From the NCBI GenBank assembly GCA_022573895.1, contig JACZTB010000016.1:1-34703 (forward strand): a stretch of DNA of 34,703 nucleotides, written 5' to 3'. Position numbers and translations under genes: made by a program. The first letter of the stretch is position 1. Each line of letters starts with the position of its first letter. The notes below the pieces were generated by a model that did not search any database, was not told the origin of the DNA, and saw nothing but the letters and a program-made list of their open reading frames with translations. The stretch is from Nitrososphaerota archaeon (GTDB lineage: Archaea > Thermoproteota > Nitrososphaeria > Nitrososphaerales > Nitrosopumilaceae). Of this stretch, positions 1,044 to 4,148 are shown in pieces.

Positions 1044-1080
1044 GGAGACAACAGGTTCAACGCCGGTAATTTAGAATGCC

Positions 1081-1168
1081 TGCCACCAAAGGTGACAAGC
1101 CCCGTGACTAATGGTTGCACAACATCGGGCGTTATGCAATTAGTGTTACGTGATACTATGTTTTAACA
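1081..1168. repeat. 88-bp direct repeat, copy 1
   Basis: This 88-base stretch recurs at 1787-1873 in the same orientation, with one 1-base deletion and six substitutions by hand alignment (about 92% identity). It begins with a small perfect hairpin (CACC-AAA-GGTG) and contains the core GGGCGTTATGC. One frame reads through the whole repeat and ends at a TAA near its last bases. It marks the junction between the overlapping microgene block and the AT-richer inserted stretch. Confidence 0.9.
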
Positions 1169-1208
1169 ATTTCCTGATTTATTTATTTTTTCTAGATGCC
1201 TTAATGTA

Positions 1209-1505
1209 TTAACCACACTTGAAGATGGCTTCTTTTATTTCTCTTACTCTTTTTGAAATAATATCCACACCTTCATTAATGTCTTCTTGAGGAGGATTAA
1301 CTTGACGTGTGTAAGAAATGTTATGTGAAAAATCACTAATAATAGAACCCAACGACCATCCTAGTACAAAATCACTATCATTTTGAACCCCCCATTCCTT
1401 ATTTTTCATTGCAACTCTAGCAAAATCTACAGTACGCTTCAATCTAGAGATCTCTATATCGATAGATTTTTCTAATTGTCCTCTTTCTTCATTGGTTAAG
1501 GGCAT
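1209..1505 (-). CDS. 98-aa helical protein, unknown, inside the repeat-bounded unit
   Basis: ATG start at 1505 on the minus strand, stop at 1209. The product is mostly helical and charged, with a central tryptophan-containing hydrophobic stretch (FVLGWSLGSIISDF, about residues 46-59) and a Lys/Glu-rich C-terminal helix ending KCG. No family recognised. It is head-to-head with the gene at 1567, 61 bases apart. An AT-rich box (GTTTAAAAAC near 1529-1538) lies at TATA distance from both starts. The unit lies between the two 88-bp repeats, so it may be a two-gene mobile cargo. Confidence 0.6.
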   Translation of the reverse strand: MPLTNEERGQLEKSIDIEISRLKRTVDFARVAMKNKEWGVQNDSDFVLGWSLGSIISDFSHNISYTRQVNPPQEDINEGVDIISKRVREIKEAIFKCG

Positions 1506-1566
1506 ATGATAACAATCATGAATACTTGTTTAAAAACGGCTTTTATCCTACTTTCATCATCATATC

Positions 1567-1812
1567 ATGATGAATGATAGAACTCACTATAATGAACTTC
1601 TAACATACATAGAGGAGATGTCAAAGAAATATGCAGAATACAAAGAACTTCCAGAGGTTTTTGTTGAATTTGGAGCTATAGAAAAAGAAGGACTCGATGC
1701 TGAAAAAGAACGCACTGCATATACTCAATTAATCAATGATATCGATATTTTATGCCATAGAGCTGCGAACAAAAAAATAAATTACTTGCCACCAAAGGTG
1801 ACAAGCCCATGA
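1567..1812 (+). CDS. 81-aa acidic helical protein whose C-terminus runs into repeat copy 2
   Basis: ATG at 1567, with a second ATG at 1570. The protein is acidic and helical, with a Cys-His near the C-terminus (DILCHRAANKK). Its last nine residues (LPPKVTSP preceded by Y) are encoded by the second copy of the 88-bp repeat. A one-base deletion relative to copy 1 creates the stop, so the tail has been shaped by the repeat. The start codon lies in a small inverted repeat (TCATCAT/ATGATGA, 1557-1573). Function unknown; it is paired head-to-head with the 1209-1505 gene. Confidence 0.55.
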   Translation: MMNDRTHYNELLTYIEEMSKKYAEYKELPEVFVEFGAIEKEGLDAEKERTAYTQLINDIDILCHRAANKKINYLPPKVTSP

Positions 1813-1873
1813 CTAATGGTTGCACAACGTTGGGCGTTATACAATTAGTGTTACGTGATACTGTGTTATAACA
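1787..1873. repeat. 88-bp direct repeat, copy 2 (87 bp)
   Basis: Second copy of the repeat at 1081-1168, offset by 706 bases. Relative to copy 1 it lacks one C in the CCCC run and differs at six bases; the core reads GGGCGTTATAC. Similarity stops abruptly at both ends: upstream of the TGCCACC start the flanks are unrelated. Confidence 0.9.
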
Positions 1874-1907
1874 TCTTTGATCTGTATACCGACAGTATAC
1901 CAATATT

Positions 1908-2267
1908 CTATAACAAATTAATTTCACATGGTTTTTCTGACGGGGTTTTATCATTACACTCACATTCATTTCGTCTCTTAAAGTGATGATACATGAAACT
2001 CTCAGCATACAGTCTGTCCTTTTTATCTACAAGTAATGCGAATCTAAAACGAACTTGATACTTCAATTTTTCTTTAATACATTTATTTTCTTCCTTACCT
2101 GGGAGATGTTCAAATAATCTTCGTTGTAAATTGTCACTTTCGCCAACATAAAAGACTCCTTCTGTATTTGATAAACGGTAAATTCCTTCTTTTTCAGGTA
2201 CAACTTCTTTAACTTGATCTTCATTGAAGCGATATCCTGAAAGATTCCAATCAACACTTAACATCAT
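1908..2267 (-). CDS. GIY-YIG nuclease domain protein
   Basis: A compact 119-aa single-domain GIY-YIG protein. From the first Met, the GIY is at residues 28-30, the YVG equivalent of YIG at 40-42, the conserved Arg at about 50 (LQRRLFEH) and the conserved Glu at about 89 (LYAESF). These are the catalytic positions of the superfamily, which cuts DNA by a one-metal mechanism. No DNA-binding domain is attached, so it resembles the small stand-alone GIY-YIG proteins seen on mobile elements and in repair. It lies just beyond repeat copy 2 and convergent to the 1567 gene. Whether it is a homing-type nuclease, a defence effector or a repair enzyme cannot be told. Two adjacent ATGs (2267, 2264) are possible starts. 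Confidence 0.85.
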   Translation of the reverse strand: MMLSVDWNLSGYRFNEDQVKEVVPEKEGIYRLSNTEGVFYVGESDNLQRRLFEHLPGKEENKCIKEKLKYQVRFRFALLVDKKDRLYAESFMYHHFKRRNECECNDKTPSEKPCEINLL

Positions 2268-2302
2268 AAATTTTTAGGCAGCACAACAATTTATGATTTC
2301 TT

Positions 2303-2434
2303 TCATTTCAGATAAACTCCACAATTAGAACATCTTGGAATCTTCATTGATGTTGCAAACTGATGACCACAATCACACTTTACAACCCTAAGCTTTGATT
2401 TTTCCTTGTATCTTTTAGCTAATCCAGGATTCAC
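2303..2434 (-). CDS. 43-aa zinc-ribbon microprotein (GTG start)
   Basis: A minus-strand ORF with two Cys pairs, C20-x-C22 and C35-x2-C38, separated by 12 residues in a typical ribbon arrangement (VKCDCGHQFA then PRCSNCGVYL). The N-terminal half is basic (AKRYKEKSKLR). The only in-frame start after an upstream stop is a GTG at 2434. It lies upstream of and in the same direction as the GIY-YIG gene, with 35 bases between them, so co-transcription is plausible. Probably nucleic-acid binding; inferred from Cys spacing only. Confidence 0.6.
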   Translation of the reverse strand: MNPGLAKRYKEKSKLRVVKCDCGHQFATSMKIPRCSNCGVYLK

Positions 2435-2462
2435 ACATACTGATTGATTGGCTCGTTATTAA

Positions 2463-2514
2463 TGGTATAGTATCACATACGATACACTTAATTATGGATA
2501 GTATGGTATACTAT
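2463..2514. promoter_or_regulatory. GTAT-rich inverted-repeat array before the C2H2 zinc-finger genes
   Basis: The region has a perfect inverted repeat ATAGTAT-GGT-ATACTAT (2498-2514) ending two bases before the ATG at 2517. A second one, GTATC-ACATAC-GATAC, is at 2470-2485, and a further GGTATAGTAT lies at its left edge. An AT-rich box (CTTAATTA, about 2487-2494) lies between them, near TATA distance from the ATG. A dimeric repressor binding here would block a leaderless start. Binding is inference. Confidence 0.5.
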
Positions 2515-2516
2515 AC

Positions 2517-2615
2517 ATGAATAAAAACTTCGAGTGCTCAAAGTGTGGCCTCGTATCCCATTTTACAAAACAGGATATGATAGACCACCTGAAATCTCAC
2601 CAGGAGGGTATCTGA
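2517..2615 (+). CDS. 32-aa classical C2H2 zinc-finger microprotein
   Basis: The whole protein is one C2H2 finger: C7-x2-C10-x13-H24-x3-H28, with the hydrophobic residues of the fold between. It starts at the ATG just behind the inverted-repeat array and its TGA overlaps the next ATG (TGATG, 2613-2617). Single C2H2 fingers of this type are well known in archaeal viruses and plasmids as small DNA-binding regulators (family knowledge). It is the first gene of a three-gene zinc-protein operon. The exact role is unknown. Confidence 0.75.
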   Translation: MNKNFECSKCGLVSHFTKQDMIDHLKSHQEGI

Positions 2616-3167: not shown

Positions 3168-3262
3168 ATGCAAAGACGAAGCGAATAACTCCGCAAAAGT
3201 GCAAGACCTACGAGGATATAGCAAAACGGCTGTACGAGGAGATTGAAAACCTTGAAACATAA
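3164..3262 (+). CDS. 32-aa basic helical microprotein upstream of the PIN-like gene
   Basis: A TTG start at 3164 overlaps the preceding TGA (TTGA), and the frame runs to TAA at 3260-3262. The product has a basic N-terminus (NAKTKRITPQKCK) and an acidic helix (YEDIAKRLYEEIENLE). Its end overlaps the start region of the DUF5615 gene by 11 to 20 bases, depending on which TTG that gene uses. The position matches that of an antitoxin in toxin-antitoxin pairs, but the length is very short. No family recognised. Confidence 0.4.
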   Translation: MNAKTKRITPQKCKTYEDIAKRLYEEIENLET

Positions 3263-3575
3263 ATATTTGCTAGACGAGTGCGCGCATGTCAAATCAGGGG
3301 CATTGATAAACTCTCGCTTTGTGAAATCACAAGAAGTGGTTGGTGAGGGTGCAACAGATGAAGAGGTATTCAAGTACGCAAAGAAGCAAGGCCTGATTGT
3401 AATTACCCGTGATTGGAGATTCGCTCATAACATGGCCTTAGAGAACCATCCCGTGATCTTCATGGACGAAGACAAGATATATCAGCTCAAGGCCAGACCT
3501 GTGAACAATATCCCACCATTTGGGGACTCGAGGGCGTTCTACATGATAGAACATGATGAAATAATACGTCCGTGA
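3243..3575 (+). CDS. DUF5615-type PIN-like protein
   Basis: The 110-aa product has the DUF5615 layout: an N-terminal LLDE (Asp11, Glu12), a central GEGATDEEVFKYAKK segment (Asp39) and ITRDWRFA (Asp57). These are the acidic residues of a PIN-like nuclease fold. Members of this family are usually toxin-like and paired with DUF433 antitoxins (family knowledge). Here no DUF433 gene is present; a 32-aa overlapping ORF occupies its place. TTG 3243 or TTG 3252 are possible starts, with no ATG nearby. The C-terminal 40 residues (PVNNIPPFGDSRAF...) extend beyond the core. Activity is inferred. Confidence 0.7.
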   Translation: MKTLKHKYLLDECAHVKSGALINSRFVKSQEVVGEGATDEEVFKYAKKQGLIVITRDWRFAHNMALENHPVIFMDEDKIYQLKARPVNNIPPFGDSRAFYMIEHDEIIRP

Positions 3576-3579
3576 TGTA

Positions 3580-3753
3580 ATGAATATGAAATCACCTTTT
3601 TGTTGTTCATGTGATGCACCAAAGACTGATAGAGTCATTCATGGTGTCTCAATCCTTTGTCGTGAAATGTTAATTTTTTACTTACAAATACGATCTGACT
3701 TAACTAAAAGATATGATCGCACTAACCTAGATTCACTTATTAATCTCACTTAA
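3580..3753 (+). CDS. 57-aa Cys-rich protein, unknown
   Basis: An ATG at 3580, five bases after the PIN-like gene's stop, opens 57 codons. The N-terminus has C8, C9, C11 and C27 (FCCSCDAP...), a possible zinc site, followed by a basic helical part (YLQIRSDLTKRYDR). The sequence becomes AT-rich in the second half, so this may be the decaying edge of the island. Moderate to low certainty that it is expressed. Confidence 0.4.
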   Translation: MNMKSPFCCSCDAPKTDRVIHGVSILCREMLIFYLQIRSDLTKRYDRTNLDSLINLT

Positions 3754-3760
3754 AAACAAA

Positions 3761-3931
3761 CTAGAGAAAGTCGGGAACATAATCAGAATAATATCGCTCC
3801 AGTGCCCTCTCAGGTATTGATTGTCTTGTTGTGATTCCTTCTTTCTTTTCGTTAACAATTTTAAAAAAGATTTGTTCGTAATTTGGAAATTTGATTAAAT
3901 AGTAAAGTTGGTAATTTGTTTCAGAAATCAA
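3761..3931 (-). CDS. 56-aa ORF, possible gene remnant
   Basis: A minus-strand frame from TTG 3929-3931 to TAG 3761-3763. The sequence looks protein-like (YYLIKFPNYEQIF, PERALERYYSDYVPDF), but there is no good start: an in-frame TGA lies just upstream, and an ATG in another frame further up suggests a frameshifted longer gene. I read it as a truncated or decayed gene at the island border. Function unknown. Confidence 0.3.
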   Translation of the reverse strand: MISETNYQLYYLIKFPNYEQIFFKIVNEKKEGITTRQSIPERALERYYSDYVPDFL

Positions 3932-3995: not shown

Positions 3996-4148
3996 TCATT
4001 CAATTCCAGCCCCACCTGTAGTATTTTTCTTAAACTCTTTCATCTTACGAGAGCATGTAAGTAATTCTTCAGGAGAATGTTTACTCTTCGGCATTCTACA
4101 CATGGGACAGATTTCATCCCCTTCTTTTGGTTTAGGTGGTTCTGTCAT
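3996..4148 (-). CDS. 50-aa small zinc-binding protein
   Basis: ATG at 4148, stop at 3996-3998. The product has C14-x2-C17 and a third Cys at 32 with a His at 24, embedded in a Lys/Pro-rich sequence (EICPMCRMPKSKHSPEELL). It looks like a small zinc-knuckle protein. It fills what would otherwise be an empty gap of more than 500 bases between the island and the ornithine cyclodeaminase gene. Similar short Cys proteins recur through the window. Confidence 0.5.
   Translation of the reverse strand: MTEPPKPKEGDEICPMCRMPKSKHSPEELLTCSRKMKEFKKNTTGGAGIE

Follow-up and report, generated by a model that had tools for sequence, protein, structure and literature searches.

The window analyzed here, a stretch of 34,703 nucleotides, is the whole contig C24 of a draft assembly (1.80 Mb in 92 contigs, 2.5% contamination) of a member of the Nitrosopumilaceae. 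BLASTN comparison of the window with itself yields a single strong pair of direct copies (1081-1168 and 1787-1873), 92.0% identical over 88 bp (E 6e-29), in agreement with the ~92% estimated in the original prediction. Two divergent genes, coding for proteins of 98 and 81 aa (p98 and p81), lie between the copies; overlapping micro-ORFs are found before copy 1 and a GIY-YIG nuclease gene beyond copy 2. This arrangement had also been described correctly; the further proposal was that the 706-bp unit so delimited is a mobile cassette with its own recombination site. The features of this region are as follows.

1075-1181, minus strand: copy 1 of the repeat (core 1081-1168; BLASTN, 92% over 88 bp to copy 2)
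1078-1100, minus strand: 10-bp 3' hairpin of copy 1, with no T-run behind it
1209-1505, minus strand: open reading frame of p98 (98 aa)
1567-1812, plus strand: open reading frame of p81 (81 aa), its last residues extending into copy 2
1781-1884, minus strand: copy 2 of the repeat (core 1787-1873; BLASTN pair with copy 1)
1784-1806, minus strand: 10-bp 3' hairpin of copy 2, followed by the terminator-like AATTTATTTTTTT
1852-1884, minus strand: conserved 5' box of copy 2 (CAAAGATGTTATAACACAGTATCACGTA) with a promoter-like TTATAA (pattern match with 0 mismatches)
1781-2303, minus strand: block of GIY-YIG gene and repeat, ~520 bp, common to contig C9 (from the identity profile along the block)
1908-2267, minus strand: GIY-YIG nuclease gene, 119 aa (Pfam PF01541, E 3.9e-6)
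2263-2297, minus strand: 10-bp inverted repeat (ATCATAAATT/AATTTATGAT) on the upstream border of that block, in a 61-nt run identical to C9
2303-2434, minus strand: zinc-ribbon micro-gene (from sequence comparison with genomes G098 and G131)

The direct repeat of 88 bp belongs to a dispersed intergenic element of ~100 bp, so far represented in two genomes of one genus. Of its five full copies, four lie in the genome studied here, together with one half copy, and the fifth lies in the same-genus genome G130. Those beyond the window pair were located with BLASTN, with the covariance model R1, built from copies 1 and 2 and the C9 copy, and with a box-only pattern.

C9:4295-4398: third copy (BLASTN match of the core at C9:4306-4392, 83%)
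C41:4025-4132: fourth full copy (R1 match at C41:4036-4132, E 6.5e-7)
G130:C3:6710-6807: fifth full copy (R1 match at G130:C3:6721-6807, E 8e-8)
C41:3672-3704: half copy consisting of the box, preceding a 94-aa open reading frame (box-only pattern, match at C41:3677-3704)

With R2, a covariance model built from all five full copies, copies 1 and 2 scored 102.7 and 119.2 bits, respectively, both being in its training set, and no additional acceptable full copy was found; extra matches in G165, G167, G144, and G037, where a Cys-rich stretch reads as coding, were regarded as chance and discarded. The core had no credible BLASTN match in the comparison set of 250 genomes of the family, and BLASTN together with the two covariance models placed no repeat in the ~248 genomes other than the two that bear copies. 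Scans of 84,980 GTDB genomes and of viral contigs, phages, and plasmids required an exact or near match, so that diverged copies would escape, and were less sensitive than BLASTN and the covariance models were on the family genomes; at that sensitivity, a strict pattern had no match in the GTDB genomes, a looser box pattern recovered the known G130 record alone, and no match in viral contigs, phages, or plasmids held up. Two viral matches to a gapped pattern were dropped because they had no score with the family model, and a viral or plasmid origin was rejected on the basis of these scans. The family appears to be previously unlisted: a limited literature search found no description of it, an absence that is no proof of novelty.

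Read on the minus strand of the window, the element consists of a box of ~33 nt, a variable middle of 38 to 48 nt, and a 10-bp hairpin at the 3' end. The box is near-invariant (consensus CAAATCAAAGATGTTATAACAyAGTwTCACGTA), the middle is alike among copies 1 to 3 alone, and the hairpin has the form CUUGUCAYC(n3-8)GGUGRCARG plus one further closing pair. The abrupt ends originally ascribed to the repeat did not hold, as the box begins ~11 nt further upstream in four of the five members (CAAATCAAAGA) and the hairpins close 3 bp beyond the edge that had been set at 1081. At the box of copy 2, a 40-nt run is identical to C9 within a block of 81% (~78 to 81%) identity, which is comparable to the 61-nt identical run ahead of the GIY-YIG gene.

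Pairing is retained in all 50 cells of the hairpin across the five copies; 12 of these cells are G-U, and one pair is changed on both sides. With five sequences alone, covariation is no better than in shuffles, and the score of one slid control falls little short. The many G-U pairs argue for an RNA of the window minus strand, since the opposite strand would show A-C mismatches. Against shuffled sequences, the window copies fold with z of -2.6 and -3.2 on the minus strand and of -0.4 and -0.9 on the plus strand, and the C9, C41, and G130 copies reach -4.2, -3.2, and -1.6, respectively. Membership in a conserved structural RNA had been named as evidence against a cassette border. The G-U hairpin indeed favors an RNA or terminator role over a pure border. 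The repeat has no counterpart in Rfam, in which the window gave weak chance matches, none of them on the repeat, and the three other copies gave none. A Twister-like ribozyme, which the plus strand at first resembled, was rejected for want of Rfam support. A protein-coding box (...QIKDVIT...) was rejected because a TAG breaks its frame in three members, namely copy 1, the half copy, and the G130 copy.

This anatomy tentatively suggests, at somewhat under even confidence, a promoter-like box joined to a short hairpin RNA or terminator and carried as a passenger of accessory-gene blocks. The box would start transcription, and the product would be a short hairpin RNA of about 65 to 75 nt; in addition or instead, the hairpin would terminate or stabilize the transcript made from the small gene immediately ahead of the repeat. 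The hairpin and the T-rich sequence behind it would form the transcript end, although copy 2 alone scores as a terminator. All five full copies keep the box and the hairpin while the middle differs, which was counted in favor of this reading. The assignment of the box as a promoter draws on C41, where the box alone precedes the 94-aa open reading frame, with the ATG 36 bp downstream of the box and after GAGG; the true promoter in C41 could instead be a TTTTTAAA stretch that lies farther upstream. In copies 1 to 3, a point ~27 nt beyond TTATAA coincides with the position of a hairpin in the middle. Counted against the same reading were a box unusually long and strict for a promoter, a TATA element assigned by eye, the variable middle, covariation within the range of shuffles, a good T-run (and, within 1.5 kb, a terminator-like site) in copy 2 alone, and the position of the G130 copy.

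Another dispersed motif of this genome, TTAGATTCTAAACTCTTTTTG, is present in 7 exact and ~14 near copies, for example at C41:2797-2814 (L086) and C32:73208, and at five sites in G130:C3 (L087). It often lies directly 3' of stop codons with a T-run downstream and is likely a gene-end or terminator motif.

Each of the four full copies in this genome is situated 1 to 28 bp 3' of a small gene on the same strand: copy 1 is 28 bp behind the 98-aa gene and copy 2 is 24 bp behind the GIY-YIG gene. Three unrelated gene types bear the repeat at their 3' ends in one orientation; no gene on the same strand immediately precedes the G130 copy. The repeat was rejected as an intrinsic part of the p81, p98, or GIY-YIG genes because homologues occur elsewhere without it.

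The two genes between the window copies do not form a defined cassette, given that homologues of both occur elsewhere without the repeat and that the p81 tail arose from a lost stop. Four other genomes hold clear relatives of p98, and numerous weak matches bring the count to as many as 144 of the 250 family genomes at the permissive cutoff of E<=0.01. The p98 family has a conserved EIKEAIFKCG tail, and the predicted structure is a confident helical bundle (pLDDT 88); searches gave no Pfam or NCBIfam match for the sequence and no meaningful match for the fold in PDB or among viral structures. The three p81 homologues (in C41, G131, and G009) all end near residue 71, ahead of any repeat, and the window frame runs 8 to 10 codons into copy 2, its stop having been lost in an A-rich stretch. 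Copy 2 does supply the C terminus of this open reading frame, as had been noticed, but that tail looks like an accident of the lost stop. In G009 (L055), the p98 and p81 homologues occur together, convergent rather than divergent, with no repeats. In C41, the 81-aa homologue is divergent to the 94-aa membrane open reading frame, which is followed by the repeat, so that the order of 81-aa gene, divergent partner, and repeat recurs with a different partner. Empty sites with a single repeat copy were not found for the 706-bp unit. The parallel expectation of additional copies around other cargo was borne out: they stand behind other small genes, in a neighborhood that is a mosaic of gene-sized blocks. 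The original interpretation is thus supported in part, and a cassette built around a recombination site is among the readings weighed below. Next to the 81-aa homologue, G131 (L048:679-1026) carries a 115-aa open reading frame similar, on inspection by eye, to the N-terminal domain of tyrosine recombinases, a possible remnant of an integrated element.

The better-bounded unit, and the sharpest mobile-looking block, is that of the GIY-YIG gene with its repeat, which adjoins the two-gene unit. Window positions 1774-2606 are 81% identical to C9:3585-4405 by BLASTN. At the zinc-ribbon stop codon (2303), identity is 1.00 on the block side and about 0.55 to 0.65 beyond; it is 45 to 75% in the zinc-ribbon gene and mostly 70 to 100% in the GIY-YIG gene, box, and hairpin. 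The window zinc-ribbon gene is closest to that of G098 (L045; 75% including the promoter) and the C9 gene to that of G131 (L048; 85%), and neither of those loci has the GIY-YIG gene or the repeat. Near-identical GIY-YIG gene and repeat thus stand behind two different zinc-ribbon variants, both of which also exist without them, and the pair therefore behaves as a block in its own right, whichever gene lies upstream. The C2H2 micro-gene upstream of the zinc-ribbon gene is again ~95% identical between the window and C9, so that, instead of an insertion, recombination in a longer block may have replaced the zinc-ribbon gene. The GIY-YIG protein scores 27.5 bits with PF01541 (gathering cutoff, 22.6) and is 79% identical to its C9 paralogue; the GIY/YVG, RR, and AE motifs are present in both copies, and a dN/dS of about 0.6 suggests that they are weakly constrained. 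The inverted repeat at 2263-2297 folds with z of -2.0 and -1.5 in the two copies alone.

Palindromes TATAGTAT...ATACTATA between the zinc-ribbon and C2H2 micro-genes (window 2465-2516, C9 at L003:860-925, and G098) are probably a shared operator. Adjoining the micro-genes, positions 3243-3575 encode a DUF5615/PIN-like protein (E 1.4e-8), possibly a toxin-like nuclease. Positions 3698-3862, which overlap a 56-aa minus-strand open reading frame (3761-3931), have 76 to 80% DNA identity to several genus members with differing neighbors.

The edges of the GIY-YIG block, an inverted repeat at one and a hairpin at the other, invite comparison with a nonautonomous mobile element, either MITE- or REP-like or resembling IS200/IS605 with hairpins at both ends, that would be moved by a transposase in trans. 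The repeat is short and dispersed, with conserved ends and a variable middle, as expected for such an element; still, its ends are not joined by terminal inverted repeats, no obvious target duplication was seen by eye in the flanks, the copy number is low, copies 2 and 3 moved together with their gene, and no transposase was recognized among the block proteins, all of which makes this origin improbable. Small dispersed intergenic repeats of bacteria include RU elements of 103 to 168 bp (PMC2759123) and MITEs (PMC10969869). The repeat resembles them in its size of about 100 bp, its dispersed intergenic location, low coding content, foldability, and capacity to donate ends of open reading frames, and differs in having no terminal inverted repeats, a very low copy number, a one-sided hairpin, and, in this genome, a fixed place behind same-strand small genes. 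A canonical MITE was rejected, with neither terminal inverted repeats nor target-site duplication seen.

IS200/IS605 elements with a noncoding RNA at the 3' end offer a further comparison. Like them, the GIY-YIG block combines a nuclease gene with structured sequence just downstream, and the inverted repeats at its two edges may correspond to their subterminal hairpins; unlike them, it has a small GIY-YIG protein in place of Y1 transposase or TnpB/IscB (a Pfam scan of the block proteins found GIY-YIG alone and no Y1 [HUH] transposase), and the same sequence also stands behind unrelated genes. With free-standing GIY-YIG homing endonucleases, the block shares a small GIY-YIG domain protein that weakly matches a group I intron endonuclease model; it differs in lying in an intergenic mosaic, with no intron or interrupted conserved target gene. 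A paper on integrated elements in Thaumarchaeota lists the IS200/IS605 family and mentions neither GIY-YIG nor MITEs (PMC6563490).

The best support for a possible gain or loss of a gene at the box comes from comparison of C41 with G130:C3. The 94-aa gene of C41 lies between direct copies of the box (3672-3704 and 4025-4057). In G130:C3, the sequence ahead of the first box is shared with C41, a single box is followed immediately by the hairpin, and the 94-aa gene is absent. The two loci are likely but unproven orthologues, as the left flank is shared (C41:1-2072, 87% identity) and the right one is not. Such a pattern would fit a cassette in which the box or the whole repeat serves as the recombination site and a gene is gained or lost together with its site, and the location of that site at the 3' ends of three unrelated gene types in the same orientation, and of the GIY-YIG gene and repeat behind two zinc-ribbon variants, points the same way. 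This possibility nevertheless seems rather unlikely, given that synteny of G130 and C41 is limited to one side, the GIY-YIG gene has no upstream box in the window or C9, the 706-bp unit has no empty site and p98 and p81 have homologues with no site, attC signatures are absent, and no recombinase was recognized by Pfam among the seven neighboring proteins scanned. More specifically, small accessory genes might be captured and lost at the ~33-nt box and the 3' RNA or single-stranded DNA hairpin, possibly mobilized by GIY-YIG, in a minimal gene-cassette system of ammonia-oxidizing archaea unlike integrons; the chance of this is slim.

Integron attC sites and CALINs have been reported in archaea, including Thermoproteota, in a paper that names no Nitrosopumilus-type genomes (PMC9668308). 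The repeat is similar to attC in the order of gene and ~100-bp site, the strand-specific fold, and the variable middle; unlike attC, it has no paired GTTRRRY/RYYYAAC core sites, its ends are noncomplementary, and no integrase was recognized nearby. An end pair of R'' (RYYYAAC) and R' (GTTRRRY) was found in none of the five copies (copy 2 has one internal chance match), and an end-to-end duplex was no better than in shuffles in all five. An attC site was rejected in the absence of these core sites, and a tRNA-derived att site because no tRNA is nearby.

The repeat could also be functionless debris that ordinary segmental duplication and recombination left behind in a hot spot. A 900-bp metallopeptidase block that is 94% identical on C9 and C32 and an inverted zinc-ribbon block in C41 and G130 accord with such a history; a near-invariant box next to a diverging middle and a hairpin paired in all copies do not, and debris is an improbable explanation. 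The comparisons in general involve draft assemblies and few copies, and strain mixing in the assembly is possible, in view of the 94% similar blocks on C9 and C32. The 900-bp block, with exactly one metallopeptidase gene (L012:4408-5307 and L107:7355-8256), has different neighbors at its two sites and a partial counterpart in G130; it represents either a gene-sized duplication or strain mixing. C9 also contains a MITE-like palindromic element of ~170 bp with TTCCAACAAA...TTTGTTGGAA ends (L003:430-600), one half of which is found in C41 just behind the repeat (L077:1665-1735), with a further match at G130:C18:1048-1214 (L109).

The repeat is not a proven cassette border and looks more like a gene-end or promoter module that gene shuffling carries along. 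Such a module would be spread by gene-sized blocks, above all that of the GIY-YIG gene and repeat, as these are shuffled within hot spots of accessory genes. Most integrated elements in the genomes of ammonia-oxidizing archaea have been classed as cryptic (PMC6563490), and the entry and reshuffling of small accessory genes in these compact genomes are not well explained. A repeat tied to gene 3' ends, where at one locus of partial synteny the gene between the boxes is either present or absent, offers a concrete, testable sequence. Even if it is a promoter or terminator module alone, it is an example of regulatory parts that travel together with genes.
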